From a virus: a stretch of 51,998 bases of DNA. The position numbers and the translations under genes are program-made. Positions 35,778 to 51,998 of this stretch are shown here, piece by piece. The notes beneath the pieces were generated by a model. The model was not told the origin of the DNA and ran no database searches. It saw only the letters and a program-made list of their open reading frames with translations. Position 1 is the stretch's first letter; each line of letters opens with the position of its first letter. The stretch covers positions 1 through 51,998 of IMG/VR virus record IMGVR_UViG_3300038420_000078, one strand, 5' to 3'.

Positions 35778-35811
35778 TTGGACGTGTCCCTTTAGCGAGT
35801 TCATTTTGATT

Positions 35812-36363
35812 TCACGAATTCTTAGGCCAAGCGGGGATCGGCGATGGCGGCGTATCGATTTGTGCCGTAGTCGTGATGGTTCCAGCATTGATCGCCATCA
35901 TGACGGCTCCCCATGTCGCCTGAACGGCAACATAAAAGTTGCAGATCGCCTCGAATATCGTCTCTACTTGCTGCGCGGTCAGCATGACGACACCACTTGG
36001 AAATACGTGAGTGATTGCCGCGCTCGGATTGGCGATGGCGAACGCCGAAGCGGCGCTCACGCGCGCATAGCTTAGCACATCGGTTCCGCATTGGATATTT
36101 TGTGCCGGATGGCCAGAAGAGGCAATGTCGATAGTGATCCCGCCAGTCTCGATCATCGAAGCCTTTTTCTTGGCATAGGCGATGAGTTGGGAGGCTGTAT
36201 AGATCGGCTTCGGCGGAGCTGATGCGATTCCTTGCGCATCTATCAACCAGCCGACGGCGACCTCTGGATAACTGGAAACGTCAACAATCCTGATGCCGGC
36301 ATTGAATTTCGGATGGCCTGGATGGAGCGCGAAGACAACGCCATTATAGACTTCCGCGAACAT
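35812..36363 (-). CDS. DUF4376-like tail protein (183 aa)
   Basis: ATG after AAGGAGAAAGAA (36363). The N-terminus (FAEVYNGVVFALHPGHPKFN) resembles the start of small fibre-associated proteins; the C-terminal half (VFPSGVVMLTAQQVETIFEA ... AINAGTITTTAQID) matches DUF4376, a domain of tail fibre or fibre-assembly proteins. Likely accessory of the fibre downstream. Overlaps none but is 11 bases from the next gene. Confidence 0.6.
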   Translation of the reverse strand: MFAEVYNGVVFALHPGHPKFNAGIRIVDVSSYPEVAVGWLIDAQGIASAPPKPIYTASQLIAYAKKKASMIETGGITIDIASSGHPAQNIQCGTDVLSYARVSAASAFAIANPSAAITHVFPSGVVMLTAQQVETIFEAICNFYVAVQATWGAVMMAINAGTITTTAQIDTPPSPIPAWPKNS

Positions 36364-37414: not shown

Positions 37415-38083
37415 TTAGGCTCCCTGCACGACTGTCGCCAGCACGCCAGACGTGCGAGGCAGGATTCCAGATGCGATGATTGCCGCCTGGACCGGGCTTA
37501 GAGCAAAATCAAACGTATAAGTCATAGTCAAATTCATTCCATCCGTCACGTAACAATTTCCTTGGCCCGGAAACAGTGACAAGAGAATCTGATTAATCGC
37601 GGGGATGGAGCCATTGCATATATTCGCCAAAGCCTTAGCGTATATCAATATGCGAAAGGCATCGTCAGTCAGAGAAAAGTTGGAAGTGAGGGGCGATTGG
37701 CCATCATAGAATATTCCCTGACCGAATGTTCCTATTTGTGGAGATTGTTGTTCAAAACCGAAATATATTCCAGATGTAAGCGTTAATACTCTATTAACGC
37801 CAACTATTCTTCCCCACACATCAAGACCATAACCTTCGGCAGTTGCTACATTCATGATTGTATCATAAAATGCATCAATATTCGCGGTTTGGTCGAAATA
37901 ATCAGCGAAATTGCTGCAAAGTTCAGTAATTATGTTTGAATTAGAGTATTGAGAAATTATTGTAGTCCATATATCAAAAGGCGCAATATCTCCTATAGGA
38001 GACGATCCTATCGTAAATGTTCCTATGGCATTTTGTCCTGATGCTGCGCCAGCAGAATATCTAGGATAAGTAGGTCCACTCAT
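37415..38083 (-). CDS. tail protein I-like / DUF2612 (222 aa)
   Basis: Pattern YGLDVWGRIVGVNRVLTLTS, then FRILIYAKALANICNGSIPA is that of DUF2612 phage tail proteins and, by position after the J gene, the counterpart of P2 gpI. It connects the baseplate wedge to the fibres. The DNA is locally AT-rich. It overlaps the HNH gene by 4 bases. Confidence 0.72.
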   Translation of the reverse strand: MSGPTYPRYSAGAASGQNAIGTFTIGSSPIGDIAPFDIWTTIISQYSNSNIITELCSNFADYFDQTANIDAFYDTIMNVATAEGYGLDVWGRIVGVNRVLTLTSGIYFGFEQQSPQIGTFGQGIFYDGQSPLTSNFSLTDDAFRILIYAKALANICNGSIPAINQILLSLFPGQGNCYVTDGMNLTMTYTFDFALSPVQAAIIASGILPRTSGVLATVVQGA

Positions 38084-38688
38084 GATGCTTTTCGTTCCCT
38101 CTCTAATTGTGCAAGAAACTCTTCATAATTCTTAGAACTCTTTCGTCTGTTGCATGTTGGACAAAGTAATTGAATATTGGAATCGCAATGTAGACCTCCC
38201 TTTGATATCGGTATTATGTGGTCAATATGATAATTATCTTTAATATCTATTGAGCATGAATTGCAAACATAATTCTGATTTTGCATCATTCTGGGAATAC
38301 ATCCCCACGAAAGCCGACCACCTCCAGCTCGTTTTGCACCGCAATAAAGTCGGCTATATATGGTATATGCCTCCTTATTGGATTCTCGATATCTTTTTAC
38401 GGATTCCTTAATTTTATCATCATTTTTTATATAGTATATATGATGAGATTTTATAGTTTTTTCTGGATTTTCATTTCTCCATTTTGCAGTCCGCAAACGC
38501 TCGGCTTCTCTGTTTTCGGCAGCCCTTTTGGCAGAACGTTGACGATGTTTTTCTTTGGCATGAGGTTGCGCGTGGGACTTCCTCACAGAAGCTCTGTGTT
38601 TTTCTCTATTTTCTGGCTTAGCAAGCCAGCGGGCCATACTCTCGCGATGAGCGGCCCTTTTTTCTTCATTGGTCATTTTCTTTTTCAT
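38080..38688 (-). CDS. HNH endonuclease within the tail operon (202 aa)
   Basis: A long basic helical leader of repeated ENREK-like segments (residues 1-110) precedes an HNH domain: CNSCSIDIKDNYHIDHIIPI, then NIQLLCPTCNRRKSSKNYEE with the metal-binding His and Cys pairs. AT-rich, unlike the flanking genes. It overlaps both neighbours by exactly 4 bases (ATGA), so the operon is not interrupted. A free-standing mobile endonuclease is the best reading. Confidence 0.82.
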   Translation of the reverse strand: MKKKMTNEEKRAAHRESMARWLAKPENREKHRASVRKSHAQPHAKEKHRQRSAKRAAENREAERLRTAKWRNENPEKTIKSHHIYYIKNDDKIKESVKRYRESNKEAYTIYSRLYCGAKRAGGGRLSWGCIPRMMQNQNYVCNSCSIDIKDNYHIDHIIPISKGGLHCDSNIQLLCPTCNRRKSSKNYEEFLAQLERERKAS

Positions 38689-40562
38689 CCGATTTGCACG
38701 ATCACATTAGCCGCCGTGATCTCGGGTTCTTGATTGATGTTTAGGGAAACGCTCTCATTGTCCACCGCGCAACTCGTGATCGAAACTCCGCAAGTTACAG
38801 CCGCGCTTGATGCCGTTGTATCGAGGCTCGTCGAATAAACCCCTGCCCCGCCAGATACTCCGGAAATGAACCCCGTGATCGTCGTCCCCGTTGGAATTCC
38901 AACACCGGCAATTACGTCCCCAATTCCAATTAGGCCAGTGACCACTGACGCGGTGATCTGATTCGCGATATTGCGTGTCCCGGTGAATGTCGCGCCGGCA
39001 ATCGTTAAGGTCTGATTGAGAATATAGGTTCCGATCCCACCTGCTCCGGTTCCAAGAGAGATGATTTGCACAGCGGCGGCTATCGTACCATTTGAATCGC
39101 CACCACTGATGAATTGACCTACTGCCAAGATCCCAGAGGTAACGGCAGTGACATTTAACGTAGTGCCGGATATCGAACCGACGACAACCGCGCTCGCCGC
39201 ATTGTTTGAACCTACCTGTATTGATTCGATAAGCGCCCATGCGCCCAAGATAGCGACGACGGTCACGTATTGAGCGCCAAGGATCGTCGATCCGATTCGC
39301 GCACGCGGCGGTGACGGAACATTGTTCGCGGGAGAAGATGCGATTGTCGTCGATGGGACAGTTTGGGCAAGAGAGACTTGATAAGTCCCCGCGTTTCCTT
39401 GTCCAGTGATTTCCTGATAAATCGTCGTCCCTGGAACGACATTCGCGCCAGAAATAAGCTGACCGGGACCAATCGTGCCAGAAATTACACTTGAAACGGT
39501 CAATGTTGTCCCGACTATCGATCCGATGAATTCGGCTCCAGAATTTAATCCATTAAAAGACGATACGATTGCCGCCGCGATAAGTGTTTGTGCGTTCGAA
39601 GGGATGTTTGGCCCATTGAAGAGCGTCACCAGGAAATATATTTGAAGGCTTTTCGGCGTTTCCCATGTAATCGTATATTGTGGCACCGGTGGTGAAAATG
39701 CCGGGTTCGGATCGGATACAACTTGCGTATTGTTTCCAGAATAAAGAGGGATGCCCGGCGGTTTTTTCTGCCAGATTGCTAAAGCTATTGCCGCAGAAGA
39801 TCCCCCCGTCACGGCGATATAAAGCGTGTTCGCGGGGATGGAAATGCCACCAATTGTCGCCGGAGCGCTTGAAGGATTGTCCACCACATAGGCATCGAGA
39901 ACGCCTGGAACATTCGAAAGGAGGGTTCCGAGCATCGCTGTGTTTGAGTTGACCGCATTCGACGCGATCGATTGTTGCCGCCGTAATTCGAACTGCTGCG
40001 ATGATTCGGCATTATTCCCGACAGTGCCGCCAATGACCGTCGCCGTGTCCCATCCAGAAATGTTTTGATAAATCTGGACTGACGACGGAACCGCGATAGG
40101 ACCAGGGGTCAAACATGCGAAAGAAAGCGTGATCGTCCCACCTCCGGGAGGAAGCGTTCCAGCTTCGGTGCATTGATAAATATTCCCGCTAGAATCATAA
40201 ACTGAGGCATATTGAGTTGGACCGGCTGGAAGTGTCGCACCTGAACCAAGACATTCTACTTCAATTACTGTCGGTTCAGCCGGAAGCCGCGTCAGAAAGT
40301 TTATTCTGGCGATAGCGTCTTGGCTTCTACCTTGTGCGAATTGTGGATCAAATTGCGTTGAGAAATATATCACGGTTTGATAGCTATTGTTGATCGCCGC
40401 CGCGAGGCTTGATGTAAGCTGACCTTGGGGAGTGTTTAGATTAAAATTGAATGTTACATTATAAGATATATTATAGTCTTGCTGCACGCCGGCAAGAATA
40501 GCCGGACCTGACGGCGTTATCGGCCCGGCGGTTCCCCAGGAAATCGGCGGAACAAAAGTCAC
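38685..40562 (-). CDS. baseplate J-like protein with three inserted modules (625 aa)
   Basis: GTG start. Residues 1-345 and the C-terminal part follow the baseplate J (gp47) family, which forms the wedge ring with gp25/W just upstream. Three copies of a repeated module are inserted at about 346-409, 461-528 and 536-588 (for example GTTLTVSSVISGTIGPGQLI, QGNAGTYQVSLAQTVPS). Without these modules the length would be near normal. Similar modules occur in the sheath and two other virion proteins. Confidence 0.75.
   Translation of the reverse strand: MTFVPPISWGTAGPITPSGPAILAGVQQDYNISYNVTFNFNLNTPQGQLTSSLAAAINNSYQTVIYFSTQFDPQFAQGRSQDAIARINFLTRLPAEPTVIEVECLGSGATLPAGPTQYASVYDSSGNIYQCTEAGTLPPGGGTITLSFACLTPGPIAVPSSVQIYQNISGWDTATVIGGTVGNNAESSQQFELRRQQSIASNAVNSNTAMLGTLLSNVPGVLDAYVVDNPSSAPATIGGISIPANTLYIAVTGGSSAAIALAIWQKKPPGIPLYSGNNTQVVSDPNPAFSPPVPQYTITWETPKSLQIYFLVTLFNGPNIPSNAQTLIAAAIVSSFNGLNSGAEFIGSIVGTTLTVSSVISGTIGPGQLISGANVVPGTTIYQEITGQGNAGTYQVSLAQTVPSTTIASSPANNVPSPPRARIGSTILGAQYVTVVAILGAWALIESIQVGSNNAASAVVVGSISGTTLNVTAVTSGILAVGQFISGGDSNGTIAAAVQIISLGTGAGGIGTYILNQTLTIAGATFTGTRNIANQITASVVTGLIGIGDVIAGVGIPTGTTITGFISGVSGGAGVYSTSLDTTASSAAVTCGVSITSCAVDNESVSLNINQEPEITAANVIVQIG
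38799..39527 (-). repeat. three virion modules in the J protein
   Basis: Protein-level repeats at 39336-39527, 38979-39182 and 38799-38957, each with the pattern T-x-L-x-V-x-x-V-x-S-G-x-(I/L)-x-x-G-Q, G-T-x-I and G-G-x-G-T-Y-x-V. The third lacks the first strand. Confidence 0.7.
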
Positions 40563-40566
40563 TATC

Positions 40567-40953
40567 TTATTCTCCCTGTGGGATTATCACGAAGAAATTC
40601 TGGTAGCTAGTTTGTCCGGTTCCCTGTGCCACAACCTGAATTTGACCAGAGATTGCGCGATTGTCGAATGATGACAGGAAAACTATCGCCGTGGCAACAC
40701 CGGGGACAGTGAGCGCCGCATTAACTAGCTGCTGTTTCAGCAATGGGAGATTGGGAACCGATCCGAGAATTGTCTGCCACGGAATCCCTATCTGAGTATT
40801 CCAATATTCTTCGCCAAGCCATGTCCGGACGGCGGACGCGGCATCTTGCGCGAGGTTATCCGGCGGGGACATGGGCGCAAGCGCCATGTTACCCGCGGCA
40901 TCCACGGTCAAATCCCAGGTATCGTCTAGTAGCATTGTCGCGAGGCCTGCCAT
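40567..40953 (-). CDS. gp25/W-like baseplate wedge protein (128 aa)
   Basis: Residues 1-40 (LLDDTWDLTVDAAGNMALAP) and the strand pattern around LPLLKQQLVNAALTVPGVAT match the phage gp25 / P2 gpW family, a core baseplate wedge part that nucleates sheath assembly. Directly precedes the J gene, the standard order. Confidence 0.75.
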   Translation of the reverse strand: MAGLATMLLDDTWDLTVDAAGNMALAPMSPPDNLAQDAASAVRTWLGEEYWNTQIGIPWQTILGSVPNLPLLKQQLVNAALTVPGVATAIVFLSSFDNRAISGQIQVVAQGTGQTSYQNFFVIIPQGE

Positions 40954-41667
40954 TTACGTTCCCGGGGTCGGTGGTGCGCCATTGGATGGGTGCGTGTGAG
41001 ATTGTAGCGTAACGCTGTCAGAGCCACCAGCGCCCGCTTGGATGGCTCCGCTCGCCTGTATCTGCCCGACGACTTTGAGGATGCCACCGGCCGGCGTGAA
41101 ACTTATGCCTTCCGCCGAAGTCTTGATGATATTCGAAAATCCATCCGTGATCGTCAGCGATCCGTCCGAACCAAGATTGAATGTCGCCTTAGTCGCCTTC
41201 CCGTTCAGAAATCCGCCGAAATAGAGCCCATCCGATATGTTGTTGCGCCGATAGCTACCAGGATTGACCTGAAGATTGGCCGTATTATTTGCGGATGCTT
41301 TTTTCAGCGCCGAGATGTCGACATCGGAGCAAGCCATCATGCCGACGTCGCCAATAGACGGGTCCATTGTGATCGACCAGCCACCTCCCTGCATTCGAAA
41401 GAACGGGATGCCATAGACCTTTGCGTTTGGCGTCGCGTTGCCGGAACCGTCGAGTTGATTCGTGAGGATTTGAACGTCAACTGTTCCTGCCGGCCCTGGA
41501 GAGCCCGATCCAGGATGAACAGCGACGACCTGCACCATTTTCACCGCCGCGACCTTTGCGATCCTTTGCCGTATCATGAAGTCAACGGCATCGAACTCCG
41601 AATTTGAGTCATATGGGTCTGCTTGTCCATATCCAGACTGATCTTGGTTAGAAACCGATCCTGCCAT
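40954..41667 (-). CDS. Gp138-like baseplate spike protein (237 aa)
   Basis: The N-terminal OB-like part (IRQRIAKVAAVKMVQVVAVH, GTVDVQILTN) and the middle follow the Gp138 N-terminal domain family. The C-terminal SHTHPSNGAPPTPG has the His-x-His metal site and Pro-rich tip of central spike proteins that puncture the outer membrane. Its ATG overlaps the stop of the HNH gene by one base (TAATG). Confidence 0.75.
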   Translation of the reverse strand: MAGSVSNQDQSGYGQADPYDSNSEFDAVDFMIRQRIAKVAAVKMVQVVAVHPGSGSPGPAGTVDVQILTNQLDGSGNATPNAKVYGIPFFRMQGGGWSITMDPSIGDVGMMACSDVDISALKKASANNTANLQVNPGSYRRNNISDGLYFGGFLNGKATKATFNLGSDGSLTITDGFSNIIKTSAEGISFTPAGGILKVVGQIQASGAIQAGAGGSDSVTLQSHTHPSNGAPPTPGT

Positions 41668-42041
41668 TATCCTATCCTCGCGAATTCACCGAAATTAAGT
41701 GCCGATGCTTCAATATAGGCTGCATGAGCATCTTCTGGCGCGTCGAAATAGCCAAGGTGGATTTGTTTCTGCAAAACCTTAATGTGTGCCATCCATTTTT
41801 TTGCACGATTATTCCAGCAAACTCCCTTGAAACCACTGGTACTATTTGTCTGTCTCTGACGGTTTGCATTGTTTTCCGAATTATTACATTCTCTAAGATT
41901 CACAAACATGTTATCAGAGCGAGTGCCATTTTTGTGGTCTATCTGGTCCACTGGCCATTCTCCAATCATAGGATCATATACCAATATTGATCTAAGATAT
42001 TCTGCTGTTAATTCCTCATTTTTGGCCATTTTGATTCTCAT
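41667..42041 (-). CDS. HNH endonuclease with AP2-like domain, shortened (124 aa)
   Basis: GEWPVDQIDHKNGTRSDNMF, VNLRECNNSENNANRQRQT is the HNH nuclease core; the C-terminus (SGFKGVCWNNRAKKWMAHIK ... HLGYFDAPEDAHAAYIEA) is an AP2-like DNA-binding domain. In this family the region between the YDP start and the GEWP motif is normally some 40 residues longer; here they are adjacent (LVYDPMIGEWPVDQ), which looks like an internal deletion. Starts in an ATGA overlap with the hub gene. May be inactive. Confidence 0.72.
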   Translation of the reverse strand: MRIKMAKNEELTAEYLRSILVYDPMIGEWPVDQIDHKNGTRSDNMFVNLRECNNSENNANRQRQTNSTSGFKGVCWNNRAKKWMAHIKVLQKQIHLGYFDAPEDAHAAYIEASALNFGEFARIG

Positions 42042-42979
42042 GTCACAGGGGGTAGGATGCTGCGGGCGAAGCCCGGATTGTAGGCATACAGCGTTTGCGC
42101 CCACTCACCCTTTGGATACAGCGAATCGAGGTCGAGATCGACTTTGCGAACCGCCCACTGAGACGGATAATTCGATGTCGGTTGTGCTCCCGATATTCCA
42201 GAAAGCAAGCTGCTATTCACCTTAATAAGGCTTCCCATGGTTATTTGTGGGTTGAATAACGTCTTGACGATTATCCCTTGTGTCGTCAAAGATGGATACG
42301 AAATCATGCCGTTTTCTGGCGAAATCGTCGGAACATTTGGTGTGTTGCGGTTGCCGCCATCCGGGAAAATAGAGAGTGTGGTTCCATTGATGATGGCAAG
42401 TTTGACGTTCGCATGCGCGCAGATATCTTTTGCCTGCTCCAGAAATGATCCAGTGAGGCTTGGAGATGAAATCTGAGCGGTGACACCATTGTTTTCGAAT
42501 TGAAAGCCCATGGCCGTCGCGAGGCTCGAGACCACATCAGCGACATTGACGGTCCCTTGATATGAAGAAACCGTCGCCGGCGTCGTCGCTTGCGCGAGAC
42601 CACTTAAAACCTCAAAGATGAATGGGACATTTGGCTGCGCCGAGAAGTCTGGCGTTGCCGAAATGATCGTCCCGCCGAAGATCGTCGAAAGGCCGCCGTT
42701 CGCATCTCCGGCCTGGATTGTGAGTTGATTGCGGGTGACTTGATTGTAGACCATTCCCAGCGTCGTCAACTGGTTCATGAGGCTTTGCGTCATGCCGTAG
42801 ACTTTGACCGTCGCCCTGCAATTGACCGACGCGCCAGCATTTTTGATCCGAACCGATATCCTCGACCCTGAGAGCGTGACCGTGCTCGTCCCGCTTTCGG
42901 CAAAGGTATTTGGTTGACCAGTTCCTGCGTTGGTCGCGAGCTGTACGGTTACAGACAAAAGTTTTTGGGTAAAACTCAT
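42038..42979 (-). CDS. baseplate hub protein (313 aa)
   Basis: MSFTQKLLSVTVQLATNAGT ... IKNAGASVNCRATVKVYGMT is the N-terminal layout of phage baseplate hub proteins (gpD/gp44 type), in which two barrel domains bind the spike and tail tube. The middle (TVNVADVVSSLATAMGFQFE) and C-terminal parts (TLSIFPDGGN, LIKVNSSLLSGI) also fit. It lies between plug and spike genes as expected. Confidence 0.72.
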   Translation of the reverse strand: MSFTQKLLSVTVQLATNAGTGQPNTFAESGTSTVTLSGSRISVRIKNAGASVNCRATVKVYGMTQSLMNQLTTLGMVYNQVTRNQLTIQAGDANGGLSTIFGGTIISATPDFSAQPNVPFIFEVLSGLAQATTPATVSSYQGTVNVADVVSSLATAMGFQFENNGVTAQISSPSLTGSFLEQAKDICAHANVKLAIINGTTLSIFPDGGNRNTPNVPTISPENGMISYPSLTTQGIIVKTLFNPQITMGSLIKVNSSLLSGISGAQPTSNYPSQWAVRKVDLDLDSLYPKGEWAQTLYAYNPGFARSILPPVT

Positions 42980-43296
42980 CCGGAGAATCCCAGCGTGGCG
43001 AGATCATCCGGCGCGAGATATACGAGTTCGAACCTAGACCCGAGGCCGATAAATACCGGATCGGACGTGCCTTGCTTGTCGTTGAAGACGAGATCGCCTT
43101 CGAACCCTATGTAAGCATCCACAACGATCCTAACCAAATTCTCGCAAATCACGCATGAAAGAAGCAATTCATCCGAGACATAGAGCGTCAGGAATAGCGC
43201 CATGTAGAATTGCTGCACGTTAATCGTGCAGCTTTGTCCATTCAAATTTATCTGAAGCGTCTGGTTTGGGATTGGGAGCAAAGGGACGGTTTGCAT
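42976..43296 (-). CDS. baseplate plug protein, Pam3-plug-like (106 aa)
   Basis: Pattern LPIPNQTLQINLNGQSCTIN ... GFEGDLVFNDKQGTSDPVFI ... LGSRFELVYLAPDDL matches the small phage plug proteins that close the tail tube at the baseplate hub (as in cyanophage Pam3). ATGA overlap with the hub gene. This is a structural protein of about normal length. Confidence 0.65.
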   Translation of the reverse strand: MQTVPLLPIPNQTLQINLNGQSCTINVQQFYMALFLTLYVSDELLLSCVICENLVRIVVDAYIGFEGDLVFNDKQGTSDPVFIGLGSRFELVYLAPDDLATLGFSG

Positions 43297-43967
43297 TAGT
43301 TAACAGCTCCCGGAACGATATTCTGCTGAGTCGAATTAGTCGTCGTCTGCGGCTGTTGAGCCCCATTCGATTGCTGTCCAGCGGCTCCCGGCTGTTGAGT
43401 GTTGCCAAAATTAGCGCTTGCGGTTACAGGGATTTCCTTGAACCACAAATCAACTGAGATTAGCGAGACGCCATGCTCGGCCGTCCGGCGCCAGTTAATG
43501 TGCGTGCAGTTGACGGAACTGAACACCATTTCCGGCGTTACGACATCAAACAATGAGAAGCTATTTGAGATCGCCATGCAAGTTTGAAGGAACGCTTGCC
43601 GATCCGAAACCGAACCTCCTCCAGCCAAGCGCAGCTTCACATCGAAAGGCATCGTTACCTTATCATATGCTTGAAAAGCTCCTTGTTCCTGTGGATAGGT
43701 CGAGATCGGCCATTCTTGGGCATATTCGAACTCGACGGTCGACGCAATGCACGGCGAAATGTTTGGCGATCCGGCAACCGATGAGACTGACGCCACAGCG
43801 GATAATGCCGAGATCAGCGAGCCGCCGCCATATGGAGTGGCCGGGGTGATGACCGGCGACCCATTCAAATACACGCCCCATGATGGCGCGGTCAGAGAGC
43901 CCAGCAAAAGATTGGCGGCGTCCTCGACCAAAAGTCCGGCATCATTGGCGAAGTCGGTGAAGCTCAT
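43296..43967 (-). CDS. baseplate/tail protein following the tape measure (223 aa)
   Basis: Between the tape measure and plug genes. The sequence is beta-rich, with a Gln/Thr/Asn-rich C-terminal tail (QQSNGAQQPQTTTNSTQQN). The position fits a hub-associated or baseplate-initiator protein, but no specific family is recognised. The start overlaps the tape-measure stop by ATGA. Confidence 0.5.
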   Translation of the reverse strand: MSFTDFANDAGLLVEDAANLLLGSLTAPSWGVYLNGSPVITPATPYGGGSLISALSAVASVSSVAGSPNISPCIASTVEFEYAQEWPISTYPQEQGAFQAYDKVTMPFDVKLRLAGGGSVSDRQAFLQTCMAISNSFSLFDVVTPEMVFSSVNCTHINWRRTAEHGVSLISVDLWFKEIPVTASANFGNTQQPGAAGQQSNGAQQPQTTTNSTQQNIVPGAVN

Positions 43968-45649
43968 GCAATTTGTCCAAAATTGGCACTTCCGGCAAGG
44001 ATAGCAAGCTTGAGATCATTGTCCACAGCTTGGGCGATCGATTTTGAATCGGTCGCATTTGGCGCATTCACGTGAACATCTCCGACCGTAATGGTTGTGT
44101 TCTTATCACCCCCGGCGTAATTCGCGCCTTGGGCTCCCATGACGCCCGGCGACATCCACGCTCCTGGCCCAGGAATTCCGGTCTCTAATCCTGGCTTAAA
44201 AGGAACTCCTTGCGTGTTATTCGTGAACGCATGATTCCCAATCATCAGTGCATTGTTTCGATTTAGACGTCTCGCCCACGCAGCAGTCGATGCGCCCGGA
44301 TTTGCATAATAGATCGAACCCGCCGTTGGATCGTTTAATTGGCCGGCATAAAGGCGTCTGGCCACATCCATTGCCGTCGCCGATGGCTGTCGCGGCGTTC
44401 CCTGAAACTCTTGCCCACCGCGTGCATAGGCCTGAGAATAAGGGTCCGCTCCAAATCCTCCGAAATTGCTTGCCGCCCGATTCCCCATAACAGCGCCAAC
44501 AGCTTCCATGCCGAGACGTCCTTCTCCACCGGCCTCCGCTTCGATCATCGCAGCCACAGCGCGAATTTTTTGTTCATCAGATGAAAATCCGGAAATCTTC
44601 TTTCCCGAGGATGAAGTTTCTCCCTTAAGACGTTTAGCCATTTCGCTATAGGTGTTTTTTCTTCCATAAAGCTGATCAGCGGTTTCATTTAGACCCATGG
44701 AACGAAGAATGTGCTCGGAACTTCCAAATGCTCCATGCAATGTCTCGCCGCTGCCAATAACTCCTTTCATCTCTTTCATAGCGTCGCCAATGAACGGAAT
44801 TTTCTCAATCAATGTGCCGAAATCTTTGATAAGAGATCGAACCGTGATTAATATTTCAGAGAATGTATCAAGCATTCCTTTTAATGCAGGAAGAAATGGT
44901 CCGACTATTTGACGAGTTAAGCCTGTAAATGAATCGCCAAGATCAGCTAACGCATGCTGATATTCCTGCGCCGCCTTTGTATTGGCTTCTGTGACCGGAA
45001 CTAATCTTCTTCCCTCTTCCAAAAGCTCTCGAACCTTTGGCAATCCTTGGATCAAAAGATTGATCATGTCCTCATTGATGCCAGGGAGGAGTGACAATCG
45101 CCCCGCCGCCGTGCGCGCATCCATCCCAGCGACAGCCGCCGAAATGTCCTTATAAATCTCCGAGGCGGTTTTCAGTTGGCCGTTGGTCTTATACATCGTC
45201 ACGCCAAGGCTCTGGAGCACCGGCAGCACGTTCGACTCGCCGGTCTGGGCAAAGCGCGTCAGTTCCCCATTCATGCCACCCAGCGCCGCGTTAGCGGATT
45301 CCGTGCTACCTCCCATCGTCTTGATGGCATGCTGCCATTCGACGATATCTTGAGCGCTAATTCCAAGGGTGAGGGACAACCGACCAGTACGCGCATCCAT
45401 TGATGTCAAAGCATTGACTGCTACGCCGACCTGTTCTCCAACAATCGCGAAAGCACCGAGCGCGGCAATCTTTTTTATGCCTTCGAAGAAATCCAGTGTC
45501 TTCGCGCCAGACTGTTCGATATTCTTGGTGCGGCGGGTGAACTCCGTCTCAAACTTACGGAGTGAATCGGCAGCTTTTCTCTGGCCGGCATCGAATTTGG
45601 CAGGGTCCAATCCGAGCGTAATTACGAATTCGTCAAGGACTGTCGCCAC
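43964..45649 (-). CDS. tail tape measure protein with SleB-like hydrolase (561 aa)
   Basis: GTG start after GAGGTAAAAA. Residues 1-300 are helical, with hydrophobic segments, as in tape measure proteins that set tail length; the small size suggests a short tail (about 80 nm if 1.5 angstrom per residue). Residues about 362-476 (RAVAAMIEAEAGGEGRLGME, GAVMGNRAASNFG, DPTAGSIYYANPGASTAAW) match the SleB/Hydrolase_2 cell-wall hydrolase fold, with E370 or E372 as likely catalytic Glu. It would clear peptidoglycan during injection. Confidence 0.78.
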   Translation of the reverse strand: MATVLDEFVITLGLDPAKFDAGQRKAADSLRKFETEFTRRTKNIEQSGAKTLDFFEGIKKIAALGAFAIVGEQVGVAVNALTSMDARTGRLSLTLGISAQDIVEWQHAIKTMGGSTESANAALGGMNGELTRFAQTGESNVLPVLQSLGVTMYKTNGQLKTASEIYKDISAAVAGMDARTAAGRLSLLPGINEDMINLLIQGLPKVRELLEEGRRLVPVTEANTKAAQEYQHALADLGDSFTGLTRQIVGPFLPALKGMLDTFSEILITVRSLIKDFGTLIEKIPFIGDAMKEMKGVIGSGETLHGAFGSSEHILRSMGLNETADQLYGRKNTYSEMAKRLKGETSSSGKKISGFSSDEQKIRAVAAMIEAEAGGEGRLGMEAVGAVMGNRAASNFGGFGADPYSQAYARGGQEFQGTPRQPSATAMDVARRLYAGQLNDPTAGSIYYANPGASTAAWARRLNRNNALMIGNHAFTNNTQGVPFKPGLETGIPGPGAWMSPGVMGAQGANYAGGDKNTTITVGDVHVNAPNATDSKSIAQAVDNDLKLAILAGSANFGQIA

Positions 45650-45652
45650 TTT

Positions 45653-45943
45653 TTACCTCTTCGTTTCCGCCTGCCTCTTCATCATTTCCATAACGACGCG
45701 CTCATTATGCTTATTCACCATATAGACTTCCAATAAATCATACAAATCTTCCACGGAATAATCAGTTTGTAAATCTCTCAAGGTAACTACAGGTCGATCC
45801 ATTGAAAGTGCAGATGCTATGCTTGCTGGGACGTTTGCATATTCGGCGAGAGTTGCCGCGCCATGATCGCCGAAATCAATTTCGAGATGGCGTCGGCCGG
45901 ACAGAAACCCGAATGTAATTTGATTACCTCCGATCTGAGCCAC
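45653..45943 (-). CDS. tail assembly chaperone T part (read by -1 frameshift)
   Basis: The open frame downstream of the G part. The upstream ORF (45817-46317) overlaps it by 127 bases in another frame, and a GGGTTTC heptamer at 45904-45910 lies in the overlap in the right phase. A -1 slip gives a 221-aa GT fusion: 138 residues of G then 83 of T. A stand-alone GTG at 45943 could start a 96-aa product. Both forms together act as tape measure chaperones in lambda-like tails. Confidence 0.72.
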   Translation of the reverse strand: MAQIGGNQITFGFLSGRRHLEIDFGDHGAATLAEYANVPASIASALSMDRPVVTLRDLQTDYSVEDLYDLLEVYMVNKHNERVVMEMMKRQAETKR

Positions 45944-46317
45944 ATTCTTGTCGCGACTTCCTCAATATCATCGTCGCTGATAATCGGCGAGGTGACGGGG
46001 AAGTTCGTCTGCGGGTCACGCTTCTTCGGATCGCGAATAATCTGAACGCAATCGAGAAGCTCATCCATGATCGGGATGACTTCTTCAGCCTGTATTTGAC
46101 CCCTAAGGAATGTGTCGACGCCGAGCATAAAGATGCCCTCCATACCCATGCCCTGGACGCCCACGACGTCGATCTTGCCGCCGCCCCGATTGTAAGCGAG
46201 CATCGCACGCAGAGCCCACTTTTCAGCCCGGTCCGCTGGCCATTCCTCGATCATAAAAGTTTTTCCTTTATCTCGGCCGCAATAATTCGGTGCCGAAACG
46301 ACTGCCTTTTTGCGCAC
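45817..46317 (-). CDS. tail assembly chaperone G part (166 aa)
   Basis: GTG start after AGAGGCTGAC. The protein lies between the tail tube and tape measure genes, the position of lambda gpG. It is helical with a central basic part. About 28 residues before its own stop, the slippery heptamer GGGTTTC sends some ribosomes into the T frame. Assignment rests on position and frameshift geometry. Confidence 0.72.
   Translation of the reverse strand: MRKKAVVSAPNYCGRDKGKTFMIEEWPADRAEKWALRAMLAYNRGGGKIDVVGVQGMGMEGIFMLGVDTFLRGQIQAEEVIPIMDELLDCVQIIRDPKKRDPQTNFPVTSPIISDDDIEEVATRMWLRSEVIKLHSGFCPADAISKLISAIMARQLSPNMQTSQQA
45904..45910 (-). promoter_or_regulatory. -1 slippery heptamer GGGTTTC
   Basis: In the G frame the sequence reads TC-G GGT TTC-T, which fits X XXY YYZ. 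After a -1 slip the frame reads GGG TTT CTG TCC, exactly the T frame. The heptamer lies in the 127-base overlap of the two chaperone ORFs. Stem-loop downstream not checked. Confidence 0.75.
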
Positions 46318-46318
46318 G

Positions 46319-46549
46319 TCAGCCTCTTCTCGTCGGTCTCAGTGTTGGATAGTCGGGATCAGAAGATTTATTGTCGGCTGATGCGACATTTAGAGGAGGC
46401 CCGCAATCCACTGGCGTCAAAAATTCAACCCGAGTGACTTTGCCGCTCGCTGCGTCGAAATCGATAGCCTTGACCACCGGACAATATTCACGGCTCCCAT
46501 GATCCTCGCCACACCAGCGGCAAGAAACGGTTTCTTTGGCATCGCGCAT
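46319..46549 (-). CDS. small zinc-type phage protein (76 aa)
   Basis: Residues MRDAKETVSCRWCGEDHGSR with two Cys (CRWC), then YCPVVKAIDFDAASGKVTRV with a further Cys: a conserved-looking small phage protein with a likely zinc site. ATG overlaps the tail tube stop by one base; a TTG at 46552 is the alternative. It lies between tube and chaperones; role unknown. Confidence 0.55.
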   Translation of the reverse strand: MRDAKETVSCRWCGEDHGSREYCPVVKAIDFDAASGKVTRVEFLTPVDCGPPLNVASADNKSSDPDYPTLRPTRRG

Positions 46550-46983
46550 CAATTCGCCGCGGGTGAAACGAGATTCCAGACGATGCGATAAGTTCTCGGC
46601 TGCAAAAGCTTCTTAACCTCGGGCATCGACGGATATTGCTCAAGACCGCCGTTAGAACAAGCCAGTTTCAGACCAATCGAGGGAAGGTAAATAGTCCCGC
46701 TCAGCGTGTAGACATCCCCAATCGCCTGTTGCTGCGCATTGATGATGTCAAAGAACGCATTCGAAGCGCTGTTGGCCTGCAAATGGATATTCTGAACGCG
46801 CTCTGTCCAGACGAAACCGAAGCTCAAAACGCCATCGACGCCCATATAGCGCTCCAATATGGTCGCGGCATCCATGCCGGTCACATTGTCTGCGCTGAAG
46901 CCCTGGAGTTGCTGTGGGACGGGAAACAGCGTCGCTTGCGATAGCGTGATGACCGCATTAGCGCCTGTGAGAGAAGCAACCAT
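46549..46983 (-). CDS. tail tube protein (144 aa)
   Basis: ATG at 46983 begins MVASLTGANAVITLSQATLF, and the product (VDGVLSFGFVWTERVQNIHL, VYTLSGTIYLPSIGL) is a small, mainly beta protein. Position directly after the sheath gene, the size and the layout fit the tube subunit, which stacks as hexamers inside the sheath. A longer open frame upstream is a chance extension. Confidence 0.68.
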   Translation of the reverse strand: MVASLTGANAVITLSQATLFPVPQQLQGFSADNVTGMDAATILERYMGVDGVLSFGFVWTERVQNIHLQANSASNAFFDIINAQQQAIGDVYTLSGTIYLPSIGLKLACSNGGLEQYPSMPEVKKLLQPRTYRIVWNLVSPAAN

Positions 46984-46993
46984 TTTGATCCCC

Positions 46994-49165
46994 TTACGTG
47001 AGCGCGACGGAAGACAAGTCGATCGATTGGACGCTACCACGATCCAAATAAAAGAAGCTAATCGGCCAAGGCCCTCGCGTCGATCGAACAGTCGGCGGTG
47101 GGACATTCACTTGCAAATAATAGCCTATAGTCTGGATCGACGAGGCCGCGTCCAATCCTGCGACTTCATTGATATAGGCGATCTGAGATGACGAAAGATT
47201 ACCCGGTCCATAAGCGCCAAAGATAAGTCCTTGGCCAATAGGACCAGACATCGATTCCTCGATAATCGAAGCTCCCGCCAGCGAAAACGGAATAGAGGGC
47301 ACATTCTGAAAGAGCGTTAGAAGTGTGATTTGGAATAGGCTGCTAAGCCAAATCTGATTTTGGTAACTGTCCATCCATGCGAATGGTCCGGTTATTTCAC
47401 CATTATAAGTCCAATCGAATGTTGATGCGCCGGTGGCATAGGCTCCATAAAAATTGTAGCCATTGGCCGCGAGATTTCCCGCGGTGGTCGGGTCGGTGAC
47501 ATTCGCCAGAATTCCCGCCTGTTCCCGGAAAGCGAAGGTCGTGCGCCCATTGGTGGCGTTGTAATTGATCGATGCGGCGACGCCAAGAATGAAGGCGGCC
47601 TTGCCATCATCTTCGGTCTTGCCGCCTTCCCATTCAAGCCATGTTCCCGAATTTTGGTTCGCTTTGAGGATTTGACCGAGACAGGAAGGCGCATCGCTCG
47701 AACTCGCTGGACTTTCGTCCGGGTCCCAACAAACATAACCGAATCGATTGCCGCCTAATGCGCTGTTGTTCCATGCAGCAAAGGCTTGCTTCTGCGTATT
47801 CCCGACGCCCCCATCGGGATCAAAGATCGTCATGAAATTAACCCACGCCTGATTGACAAGAATCAGAGCGTTCATGAAGGTTCCTGGCACCGCCGCCGCC
47901 GCTCCTTGGGAAAGAACGGCTCCGGTCGCCGAGGTCAAATTCAGGGACTCGGCTAGAGTTCCCGTCGCATAAGCGGATGTCGAAGCAACGCCGGTAATGC
48001 CAGACGTGAAAATGAATCCGCCGGTCGTCGAATTGTAAGAGACGGTCATTGGCGTTGCTATGGTCGTGAATGCGCCGCTCGCAACATCTTGCTGCACGCC
48101 ATTAGTCTGGTAAGTCCCGACGCCGCCGGCAGGATCTCCGGTGAGTTGCGCCGTGATGATCGGGCTGCCAGTTAAACCGGCATTGACGAGCGTCTGCCCA
48201 ACGGCGATTGTGGGACTGGCGCAAACGGTCACATCAAGAACCGTTGAAGTGGACACCATGCTTCCACTGGCAATCCCTTGAGCAGAGATGCCGCTCAGTT
48301 GATAGGTTCCCGCGCCTCCGGTCGTTCCGGTGAGCTGCGAGATGATAACCGCGTTCGCCGCTACCGTGGTGACGATATCTCCGGCCGAAAGCAGGCCCGT
48401 CACGCTCGTAGCGTCCAGCACTGTGGACGTTCCAGTAACGGTGGCACTCGTCATATTGCCGCCGGTCGCCGGGGCGCTGAGTTCGAATGTCGCGCCGACG
48501 CCACCGCCCGGCGTGCCGGTGAGTTGCTTGACGATATAGCAACCCGCGGGCAATGGGTGGCTGCCATCGGTTCCCGAAACAAGGTCGCCGGCCGAAAAAT
48601 AACCATCAGTCAGGGAACCGAACGTCAGCGTAGTTCCTGTCGTCGTGCAGGTGGCGGCATGTCCGCCCATCGACGCCGTTAGCGCCGCGCCCATCGACGC
48701 GGTGAACGAAGCCTCGGTCGGATTGGTGAAAGCAGCTTGAATCGCATTGGCGATTGCTGTTGGCGTTGGATCGCCGGCAAAACTGATGGAACTGATCACA
48801 TGCGGATAACCGTCCATCACGACGGTCAACGACCCAGACAAGGCTTCCAATTGAGTTTGGCTCAGCGTGATCTTTGCGCCGCGCAAATAGGCCGGAACTG
48901 CTTCGTTATATTGAGCGATGTAAAGAGTTGATGGGGAAATCGAGGCTCCTTCATAGCCGTTGAAATAAATCCCGGCTTCTGTCGCTTCGTATGAAGCCGC
49001 GCCGAAATAGCCTTCTACGGCGGCCTGATTCGGAAACGAGAGGACTGCCCCGATCGGAACCAACGGATTTGTCGTCAGCATCAAGCCGGCGCCATTCAGA
49101 CCTGTGCCACCTACTCCGAGGACGCTCGGAATGACATTGACAATTTCACTTGCGGGGATCGTCAA
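46994..49165 (-). CDS. tail sheath protein DUF3383 with a large insertion (723 aa)
   Basis: TTG start after CGGAGTATGAGCC gives TIPASEIVNVIPSVLGVGG..., the N-terminal pattern of DUF3383 sheaths. The first 160 residues and residues after 370 belong to this family. Residues about 165-368 (about 200 residues) are an insertion of three or so copies of the repeated virion module. Normal DUF3383 sheaths are 350-500 residues. The insertion should lie on the outside of the contractile sheath, in some two hundred copies. Confidence 0.8.
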   Translation of the reverse strand: MTIPASEIVNVIPSVLGVGGTGLNGAGLMLTTNPLVPIGAVLSFPNQAAVEGYFGAASYEATEAGIYFNGYEGASISPSTLYIAQYNEAVPAYLRGAKITLSQTQLEALSGSLTVVMDGYPHVISSISFAGDPTPTAIANAIQAAFTNPTEASFTASMGAALTASMGGHAATCTTTGTTLTFGSLTDGYFSAGDLVSGTDGSHPLPAGCYIVKQLTGTPGGGVGATFELSAPATGGNMTSATVTGTSTVLDATSVTGLLSAGDIVTTVAANAVIISQLTGTTGGAGTYQLSGISAQGIASGSMVSTSTVLDVTVCASPTIAVGQTLVNAGLTGSPIITAQLTGDPAGGVGTYQTNGVQQDVASGAFTTIATPMTVSYNSTTGGFIFTSGITGVASTSAYATGTLAESLNLTSATGAVLSQGAAAAVPGTFMNALILVNQAWVNFMTIFDPDGGVGNTQKQAFAAWNNSALGGNRFGYVCWDPDESPASSSDAPSCLGQILKANQNSGTWLEWEGGKTEDDGKAAFILGVAASINYNATNGRTTFAFREQAGILANVTDPTTAGNLAANGYNFYGAYATGASTFDWTYNGEITGPFAWMDSYQNQIWLSSLFQITLLTLFQNVPSIPFSLAGASIIEESMSGPIGQGLIFGAYGPGNLSSSQIAYINEVAGLDAASSIQTIGYYLQVNVPPPTVRSTRGPWPISFFYLDRGSVQSIDLSSVALT
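48062..48673 (-). repeat. virion modules inserted in the sheath
   Basis: Three module copies at protein positions about 170-241, 243-305 and 306-367. Shared features: TSTVLDVT-type strand, (V/I)-G-(Q/D), I-x-(A/S)-Q-L-T-G and G-G-(A/V)-G-T-Y-Q. Confidence 0.7.
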
Positions 49166-49240
49166 GGCTCATACTCCGAGTTAGTCGTGATCTTGGAATT
49201 TGCGGATTTGTAACACGAAACGTCCTACTCGCGCAAAACA

Positions 49241-50218
49241 TCAAATAGGATATGCTGCTTCCACGCTGACAAATGTTGGATCGACCGAATCGGCGAATGT
49301 TTGCGGAACCTGAATCGTTTGATGAACCTCGAGATGGCAATCCAAACCCCACCTCCATTCATATTGCGACTCGGCATTAACAAATGGCCTTTGTGCTGGA
49401 TCGTCCGCGTAGAGCGGAACAACCCCATTTAGTGACCCCGATAAGCCAGCAAAGAAGTCCACTCCAAACTCATCACGTAACGCCGTCGATATTGTTTGAG
49501 AAAAATCTCCGCTTGTCGTGTCGCTTGAATGGCAATCGATTTGAACAGTTATTCCAGCATCCTGAGTTAAGGTTTTCCATCCAGCGTTCATAGTTTCATT
49601 TATTATTGTTTGTGAATTAGAAATAAGATACGTTCCGATTCCTCCACTGCCGCTTTGAAGGTCGATTACTTGTGTTCCGATTGCAACATTTTCGCCAAAA
49701 ATGGAAGCTCCGACCAATATCTCTCCGGTTTGGACTTCGGCTACGGTCAGTAAATTTGCGGAAATCGATCCGGTGAATTTTACATCTTGAAAATTATCGA
49801 CATTCGTTGCCAACCGAACAAATCGAATAGGCGTCATTACGACGAACCACGGGTTTGCCGGTTCCGCCGCGCGGTTTGGCTGCCCTGCGATTACATCGAC
49901 GCCCGTTGCCAGTGTGACGCCAGTTGGCGCTGAGCCGAGAGTTTGCGAAAATGAGACCGAATACGTTCCAACTCCGCCCGCGGTTCCGCTGATTTGAGAT
50001 TGAATAGTGGTTCCTGATGCGGCTCCGAGAACTGGCGAATAAAGTTCAATAGTGCCCTCGATGATATTGCTCACCGTCAGCACGTCGCCTGTGATCCATC
50101 CCGAAAATACCGCCGGAGGATCGCCACTGAAAGGTCCGGGCAAAATTTCATACAAAAAAGCCGAGAGAGCGGCCTGAACCGTTGATTGACTGAGCGATAT
50201 CGGAAAGGGAATAATCAA
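49241..50218 (-). CDS. tail terminator-like (LIC_12616-type) protein with two modules (325 aa)
   Basis: TTG at 50218 lies behind GGGAGG and overlaps the previous stop as TTGA. The pattern ISLSQSTVQAALSAFLYEIL, AGQPNRAAEPANPWFVVMTP and IRFVRLATNVD fits the LIC_12616-type phage tail terminator family, which stops tube growth and joins head to tail. Two modules are inserted (about residues 38-100 and 149-212). The C-terminal domain (GWKTLTQDAGITVQIDCHSS) completes the family domain. Confidence 0.65.
   Translation of the reverse strand: MIIPFPISLSQSTVQAALSAFLYEILPGPFSGDPPAVFSGWITGDVLTVSNIIEGTIELYSPVLGAASGTTIQSQISGTAGGVGTYSVSFSQTLGSAPTGVTLATGVDVIAGQPNRAAEPANPWFVVMTPIRFVRLATNVDNFQDVKFTGSISANLLTVAEVQTGEILVGASIFGENVAIGTQVIDLQSGSGGIGTYLISNSQTIINETMNAGWKTLTQDAGITVQIDCHSSDTTSGDFSQTISTALRDEFGVDFFAGLSGSLNGVVPLYADDPAQRPFVNAESQYEWRWGLDCHLEVHQTIQVPQTFADSVDPTFVSVEAAYPI
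49583..50107 (-). repeat. virion modules in the terminator
   Basis: Two module copies at 49919-50107 and 49583-49774, with GDVLTVSNIIEGTI ... GTAGGVGTYSVSFSQTLGSA and NLLTVAEVQTGEILVGAS ... GSGGIGTYLISNSQTIINET. Confidence 0.7.
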
Positions 50219-50583
50219 TAGACCTCCCACGCATTGCAAACGGTGCTCGATCCTGTCGCTATGGCATAAACCGCCGCTGTCACAGGGAGCATGATCGAAC
50301 TGCCTGCTGGCAACTGTGGCGATCCCGCGAACGTCACCCCGCTACCGCCCAGAGCGACAGTCGCCGCGCAAATGATCGCAACACCCACTCGACCTGTTCC
50401 CGGAGTGCCTATGCGCGCGGCGACCAACAATGTCGGTGACGTCGTGACCGTCACGGGCGCGGGACCGGTGAAATTTCCAGATCCGACCGGTGGATATATA
50501 TCGTTCGCGGCATTGGCGAAGTCAGGCAAAGCCAAAAGAGATGCGATTAACGCCAATGAAAATGCTATTTTTCTCATCATCAT
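50215..50583 (-). CDS. virion-associated protein with signal peptide (122 aa)
   Basis: MMMRKIAFSLALIASLLALP with cleavage near NANAAN is a signal peptide. The rest is the small domain shared with the C-terminus of the 341-aa protein at 29313 (TLLVAARIGTPGTGRVGVA, and AAVYAIATGSSTVCNAWEVY). Overlaps both neighbours by 4 bases within the head-tail gene row. A signal peptide in a head-tail module is unusual. Confidence 0.5.
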   Translation of the reverse strand: MMMRKIAFSLALIASLLALPDFANAANDIYPPVGSGNFTGPAPVTVTTSPTLLVAARIGTPGTGRVGVAIICAATVALGGSGVTFAGSPQLPAGSSIMLPVTAAVYAIATGSSTVCNAWEVY

Positions 50584-51407
50584 GATCCATCCTGCGCGGT
50601 TATTAATATCTTAACCCATCCAGCGCTAGAAAACCACGGCTCGACGGGTTGCTCAACCAACCAGACAGAGCCATCCGGCAAAACAACCAAATCGCCGCCT
50701 CGAAGCGTCACTCGAACAATTCCCTTAATGTCGAGACTGGCATAAAGAACGCGATGCGAACCTTGCAAATTCAAATAATCGGTATGTCTTAGATCGCTGG
50801 CGCTTTGAGCCTGGATTTGAGCCAAAATCGTCAGCGAAGTCGTCATGGCTTCCGACGCCACGGTTTGTTGCTGAGTGAGGCTATAGAGGCCAGCGCCGCC
50901 TGTTGGCCCTGATATCTGTCCCGTGATCATGGTTCCGACGGCCAGAGCACTTGTCGTGTCCGCGAGTGTTTGGCCTATCGCGAGTTTTCCCGAGGCGACA
51001 TCCGAGGCATTTAGGACCGTGCTGAGGGCGGTGACGTCGCATTGAGCGAGCGCGCCGGGGAACGGAACCATATTAAGCTGATAAGTGCCAGCGTCGCCGG
51101 CTGGCCCGAAGATTTGATCGATGATGGCGCAACCCGCCGGAAGGGCATTTATTCCATCCGTGCCTGAAATGATGTCTCCAGACTGAAGGCTCCCGGTGAT
51201 AACGGAAATGACCGTTAGGATTCCGGTCTCGTCGCAACTCGCCTGGAAAGTTCCGCCGATGGATGCTGTGATCGATCCCGGCGTTGCATAAGCCGGTTGT
51301 GTCGTTCCGTCTGGAGCCTTCGTGTTTCCGATGCCCTGGCGCAATTCGACGAACTGGTTAGGATTTACCGCGCCGATGGCTGATGAAACGAGTTGATGTA
51401 GATTCAT
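50580..51407 (-). CDS. head-tail connector-type protein with two modules (275 aa)
   Basis: Starts MNLHQLVSSAIGAVNPNQFV and ends in LRHTDYLNLQGSHRVLYASL ... GWVKILITAQDGS, the layout of a phage neck/connector protein family found between capsid and tail genes. Two modules are inserted in the first two thirds (about 51-123 and 126-190). Overlaps the next gene by 4 bases. Confidence 0.6.
   Translation of the reverse strand: MNLHQLVSSAIGAVNPNQFVELRQGIGNTKAPDGTTQPAYATPGSITASIGGTFQASCDETGILTVISVITGSLQSGDIISGTDGINALPAGCAIIDQIFGPAGDAGTYQLNMVPFPGALAQCDVTALSTVLNASDVASGKLAIGQTLADTTSALAVGTMITGQISGPTGGAGLYSLTQQQTVASEAMTTSLTILAQIQAQSASDLRHTDYLNLQGSHRVLYASLDIKGIVRVTLRGGDLVVLPDGSVWLVEQPVEPWFSSAGWVKILITAQDGS
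50838..51257 (-). repeat. virion modules in the connector protein
   Basis: Two module copies (TGILTVISVITGSLQSGDII ... DAGTYQLNMVPFP and STVLNASDVASGKLAIGQTL ... GGAGLYSLTQQQTVASEAM). Confidence 0.7.
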
Positions 51408-51437: not shown

Positions 51438-51998
51438 TTACGTCGCGAGAACGCCGAGTCCCGTCGTCGCACCACCCGCCGCGCTGATCTGTCCGACATA
51501 AATCGCCCCGGTGGCCGCGATCGCCCCGGCGCCGACGGATATGCAAGCGGGATCGAGAATGATGTTGCCAGCCGGGGTGCCGCCGGCGTTGGAGATCGCG
51601 ACTGTCATGGCAGTAGCCCCGAAATTGTGAAACACACATCCTTGAAGCGCGAGATAGCGATCCATTCCGTTTGCGGCCACCAAGATATGAACGTCCGATG
51701 CTTGGGTGACTTCGGATTGGAACAAGCACGATTTCATCACATTGCGCGCCGTGCCCGCGATGAGTTCGAGGGAAGCGTTTGCCAACGACGCGCGCACTAC
51801 GGTATCGAGACCGATCGTGCATCCGACGAAAAGATTTTCGCCCGAACCGCCAATTGTGAGAGAGCGCATCCCGGCCAGCGCCGCCGTCGTCGCGTCGCCG
51901 CCGCCGAAGAATTGAACATTGCTATAATAGTTCCGACCACCATTATCCGCCCAACATACCTGAGAAGCGGTCGCGCCAGTAAATCCGCCATGATATGT
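51438..51998 (-). CDS. beta-helix-like virion protein, 5' end missing
   Basis: The frame is open to the right end of the window, so the start is missing. The visible 186 residues (GGRNYYSNVQFFGGGDATTA, LFVGCTIGLDTVVRASL, NVMKSCLFQSEVTQASDVHI, ALQGCVFHNFGATAMT) show the regular strand pattern of a right-handed beta-helix, as in phage head-decoration or fibre proteins. It precedes the connector genes, so a head-side structural role is likely. Confidence 0.5.
   Translation of the reverse strand, partial: TYHGGFTGATASQVCWADNGGRNYYSNVQFFGGGDATTAALAGMRSLTIGGSGENLFVGCTIGLDTVVRASLANASLELIAGTARNVMKSCLFQSEVTQASDVHILVAANGMDRYLALQGCVFHNFGATAMTVAISNAGGTPAGNIILDPACISVGAGAIAATGAIYVGQISAAGGATTGLGVLAT

Follow-up and report, generated by a model that had tools for sequence, protein, structure and literature searches.

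Phages have been known to carry accessory Ig-like domains for some twenty years, and what these are for is still mostly conjecture. Their presence on phage virion proteins was reportedly described by Fraser et al. in 2006. On each particle of phage Douge, 919 Ig-like domains are displayed at the surface, and domains of this kind were shown to bind host glycans (PMC13033339). Among the closest described systems are the E217/Pa193-type myoviruses (PMC10329688), with the same gene order and the same families of sheath, collar, gateway, tube, hub, and baseplate J protein as the phage studied here. The sheaths of E217 and Pa193 have no modules, and their cores align to our sheath (8env and 9b42).

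The window –the whole stretch of DNA that was analysed– is an entire viral record of 51,998 nt and belongs to a soil phage. An HMM scan of all six frames found exactly ten copies of a module of about 60 residues, in four genes only: three each in the baseplate J protein and the sheath, and two each in the terminator and the collar protein (Table 1). The first-pass annotation had proposed ten copies of one pattern distributed in this way; the HMM returned the same genes and the same numbers, and the positions were right, with modules spanning 38790-51221. To avoid circularity, the profile was trained without all copies of one gene and then searched on that gene. Every copy was recovered at 21–52 bits, and shuffled versions of the same held-out proteins (100 shuffles each) reached at most 7.1 bits. 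Pairwise protein identity between copies is 20–48%.

Table 1. Module-carrying genes and module copies in the window
Feature	Coordinates	Strand	Remarks
Baseplate J (E217 gp44-like, PHROG_6)	38685..40562	minus	625 aa, three modules, two insertion sites
Module J1	39336..39515	minus	J site 1, before RARIGST
Module J2	38982..39170	minus	J site 2, near C-terminus
Module J3	38790..38954	minus	J site 2, tandem with J2
Tail sheath (DUF3383, E217 gp31-like)	46994..49165	minus	723 aa, three tandem modules, one site
Module sheath1	48440..48640	minus	HMM scan
Module sheath2	48251..48430	minus	HMM scan
Module sheath3	48062..48250	minus	HMM scan
Tail terminator/gateway (E217 gp29-like; PF23961, PHROG_1876)	49241..50239	minus	332 aa, two module sites
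Module term1	49928..50092	minus	HMM scan
Module term2	49583..49762	minus	site also occupied in L014, L015, L055
Collar/head-closure protein (E217 gp28-like, PHROG_1912)	50580..51407	minus	275 aa, two modules
Module collar1	51069..51221	minus	HMM scan
Module collar2	50838..51023	minus	HMM scan

The sheath core belongs to the DUF3383/E217-like sheaths (Pfam DUF3383, E 5e-94), and the whole protein is oversized, as the annotation had claimed: it has 723 aa, where two relatives without modules have 492. What had been called a connector protein does carry two modules, but it is an E217 gp28-type collar protein (PHROG_1912, E 2e-25, with synteny in agreement and a weak Pfam match, E 0.003). A fifth carrier, an XM1-gp53-like minor capsid protein (PHROG_2122) with two tandem modules (L017 916-1893), is encoded beyond the window end, directly upstream of the gene for the major capsid protein. 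It is seen in two contigs that are 99.97–99.99% identical to the right end of the window and extend past it. These two further modules bring the total for the phage to at least 12 copies, spread over five virion proteins.

Other genes lie among or near the carriers, all on the minus strand. An HNH endonuclease gene (38080-38688) sits between J and a gp45-like gene; in Aeromonas phage 56, an HNH gene is found just upstream of J instead. A homing-endonuclease-like gene with HNH_3 and AP2 (41667-42104) overlaps the baseplate hub gene, and about 370 bp of it are absent from the near-identical contig L113. Between the collar and terminator genes, a 122-aa ORF with a signal-peptide-like start (50215-50583) had no match in Pfam and PHROG searches and is absent from Pantoea phage PA-1. 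A gene for a 320-aa protein (51438-51998, complete in L017 4885-5844), with a weak match to DUF1565 (beta-helix), is located between the neck and collar genes and is also absent from PA-1. A 1658-aa ORF (30912-35888), located at the fibre end of the virion genes, had no match in the Pfam search.

The modules are clean insertions and not core parts of their carriers. In the syntenic phage PA-1 (OQ847583), all five carrier proteins are present without modules: minor capsid protein 162 aa, collar 122, terminator 183, sheath 492, and J 410, against about 320, 275, 332, 723, and 625 aa in the window phage. The tube protein, without module, has 146 aa and is nearly the same size in both phages. Aeromonas phage 56 has empty sites too. 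The Pa193 sheath (PDB 9b42) aligns to residues 17–151 and 373–696 of ours (E 2e-16), so that about 220 residues replace about five; the E217 sheath (8env) matched in Foldseek with E 4e-22. Of 133 named phages with a related sheath, the 25 that were listed also have the site empty, their matches falling into two pieces that span ~1.46–1.48 kb. There is one insertion site in the sheath and in the minor capsid protein, two in J and in the terminator, and one or two in the collar protein. The second sites of J and of the terminator are occupied in other lineages as well, that of J also in a Rhizobiales bacterium prophage (L108). The module had been described as inserted into otherwise family-like proteins, and module-free homologues exist for every carrier. 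Since empty sites occur in all five, we rule out that the segment is a core part of each protein.

We read the module as a compact all-beta domain that folds on its own and belongs to a family not yet described. The AlphaFold2 model of a single module is all-beta and confident (pLDDT 95, pTM 0.82), with four strands (2–14, 25–28, 36–40, and 48–66), in line with the one common fold that had been assumed for the copies; the predicted model of the sheath has low confidence over modules 1–2. None of 86 diverse modules matched any Pfam or NCBIfam family, Ig-like profiles included, and PDB sequence searches gave no chain matching the module. In the PDB fold search, no Ig beta-sandwich matched significantly (the Ig-type adhesin FdeC only at E 1.8, TM 0.35), and we therefore reject Ig-like membership. 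The earlier comparison with Ig-like domains stands for the optional addition to different virion proteins, but not for fold and profile. Membership in the carbohydrate-binding modules (CBM) is also out, with no Pfam CBM match, 0.1% Trp, and one conserved Tyr that lies within a strand and is probably buried. The best Foldseek match in PDB was 8eci_1, a protein of Arthrobacter phage Bridgette (TM 0.67, probability 1.0, E 0.044), which judging from its length of 124 residues is probably a capsid decoration or cementing protein. Among predicted viral proteins (BFVD), ten fold matches fell below 1e-3, including an HK97-type capsid protein, P22 gp10, and a collagen-repeat protein of Indivirus, a giant virus. 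We found no description of the module in the literature. A module consensus query had no match among named phages, a result open to BLAST low-complexity masking and thus not a measure of rarity there.

We counted modules per protein family in about 160 related phage loci, after dropping near-duplicates of several loci; the sample is biased to relatives, as loci were taken in order of their similarity to the queries selected. Modules are most frequent in minor capsid proteins (55 of 70 homologues), followed by J (58/96), terminator (75/146), sheath (73/159), and collar protein (11/124). Sixteen other virion families had no module, with 0/38 to 0/153 homologues each. These are the portal, head morphogenesis, protease, major capsid, and three further head and neck proteins, together with the tube, chaperone, tape measure, two gp37/38-like proteins, hub, spike, gp25-like wedge, and gp45-like protein. 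One of 65 fibre homologues has a single module, and the virion family PHROG_3645 has one module in at least two loci (L218, L220; L249 has a similar ORF). The E217 counterparts of the five carriers are the capsid decoration, collar, gateway, sheath, and baseplate nut proteins (PMC10329688). The location part of the earlier surface-decoration claim is supported: apart from rare other carriers, modules are confined to proteins exposed in E217, and the 16 other families are empty.

Outside these families, contig scans placed the module in tail fibres, in P22 gp10-like head closure proteins (PHROG_578), in the PHROG_12985 proteins next to these, and in others. In an unrelated phage, one tail fibre joins a module with several CBM5/12 domains (L089 4924-8391). 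Only 3 of 297 sampled Rhizobiales genomes have any module; in the Rhizobiales genome of L108, all six lie inside 15 kb of one prophage. Among a few cellular matches is a secreted-looking protein on a bacterial MAG contig (L107 1013-4006), which contains several degenerate tandem modules.

Copy numbers vary from 0 to 4 per protein among relatives and from 0 to 10 in total in the loci where all five carriers are readable. In 42 of 49 loci the presence of modules follows a nested order, against a null mean of 23.6 and a null maximum of 33. Independent branch pairs showed no linked module change between proteins, at low power, and nested presence may therefore reflect shared descent. A coordinated gain of modules in different proteins is unsupported by these branches despite the nesting.

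Regarding how the copies spread, the nearest relative of a module lies in the same gene for 255 of 311 copies (shuffling expects 79, maximum 101), and in the same genome for only seven (4.6 expected). Most insertions are thus old and have been passed on within their gene. We rejected a recent duplication inside the window phage, with no DNA-level match between sheath and J, sheath and collar, or J and terminator, and at most 48% protein identity. The spread between genes that had been proposed is seen in relatives: in L114 and L116, a sheath block of a leader and two modules recurs in J at a third site, with 62% protein identity over 174 aa and 68% DNA identity over 437 bp. L118 and L125 are single cases of copying between genes. 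In the window lineage, by contrast, copies mostly descend within their own gene, so that between-gene spread is old there.

Relatives also show a patch of recombination that is limited to modules. Over several kb, L113 is almost the same as the window, yet 32 of their 38 differences in the sheath fall in a patch at nt 840–1092, inside modules 2–3. At 49244-50092, the terminator is swapped for a diverged allele from within module 1 onwards (dS ~0.6). This evidence comes from one strain pair, and we do not claim the modules as hot spots. With dN/dS (ratios of the values as printed) of ~0.11–0.36 against 0.08–0.24 in the cores of the same pairs, which are not independent of each other, the modules are kept by selection, with constraint looser than in the cores.

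With moderate confidence, and by analogy with Ig-like domains on phages, we propose that the modules, with a fold of their own, would clothe the entire virion as accessory domains and make it adhere through many weak contacts. Phages of this clade have inserted one to four modules into loops of the outer-surface proteins, i.e., minor capsid protein, collar, terminator, sheath, and J. The modules, probably facing outwards, may together bind weakly and multivalently to polysaccharide or other surfaces, whether of the host or of its soil and peat setting, and so may keep the phage near cells until the fibres bind. Tandem arrays and changes of site could tune the number of contacts offered. By E217 stoichiometry, a virion would carry about 1032 modules (2x180 + 2x6 + 2x6 + 3x204 + 3x12), an estimate that assumes tail length and capsid size as in E217 and the minor capsid protein as gp24. 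The composition of the modules (57% G/S/T/A, 3.3% charged) counts against adhesion, since with near-zero charge, almost no Trp, and one conserved Tyr the classical aromatic sugar-binding platform is absent. A bolder version, which we consider possible but doubtful, is an interchangeable skin of the whole virion: cassettes would move by copying among the genes for sheath, baseplate, neck, and capsid proteins, recombination would exchange them between phages, and the adhesion of the particle could be adjusted with no change to the tail fibres.

Since the solved structure closest in fold probably belongs to a capsid decoration protein, a cementing role would fit equally well. Modules of neighbouring subunits would then contact one another or the adjacent protein and so strengthen sheath, neck, and capsid against stress in soil. 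Dimeric capsid cementing proteins in Bridgette (PMC13033339), the high frequency of modules in minor capsid proteins, and the proposal of extra sheath domains as tail stabilisers (PMC9230969) all point in this direction. A fitted lattice contact would hardly allow the variation in copies per protein, though, and the same module occurs in collar, J, and fibres, where the proteins around it are very different, so we hold structural cement to be unlikely.

Still less likely is nearly neutral accretion, where tolerated loop insertions are multiplied and moved by repeat recombination with little function. That modules recombine, and that gains and losses in different genes are uncorrelated on independent branches (at low power), agrees with it; purifying selection on the module codons, open frames maintained in hundreds of copies, and the absence of modules from the 16 other virion families, whose loops could be tolerant too, do not. 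Least probable is an inert or shielding coat, in which a low-charge Thr/Ser/Gly-rich surface would cut non-specific sticking to soil particles or shield the virion: charged residues are scarcer in modules than in sheath cores (3.3 vs. 8.8%; Lys+Arg 0.8% in modules), but a module beside carbohydrate-binding modules in the L089 tail fibre suits adhesion better.

The phages of this clade form a natural gradient, from 0 to 10 modules over five proteins, with empty sites and near-identical strains, in which the function of accessory domains spread across a virion can be put to the test. Moreover, a widespread domain family that is missing from annotation libraries is defined here.

Compared with known systems, the module has several partial counterparts. 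PHROG_21413 (unknown function) and PHROG_38233 (tail fibre) contain it as an internal stretch of their profiles, and they are whole-protein clusters, not domain definitions. Bridgette 8eci_1 is the best PDB fold match, with 24% identity and E 0.044, but it is a separate 124-residue protein and not an inserted repeat. The extra sheath domains of PMC9230969 are likewise beta-rich and placed away from the tube-facing core; that study ties them mainly to large genomes, whereas the module occurs in 1–3 copies per sheath and is shared with proteins of the capsid, neck, and baseplate. The Ig-like domains of phage virions, including those of Douge (PMC13033339), are likewise small beta domains, optional, promiscuous, and exposed on unrelated proteins, and they are thought or shown to bind glycans weakly. 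Our module differs from them in fold and sequence, with about 60 residues placed in loops and in tandem across five virion proteins of one phage.
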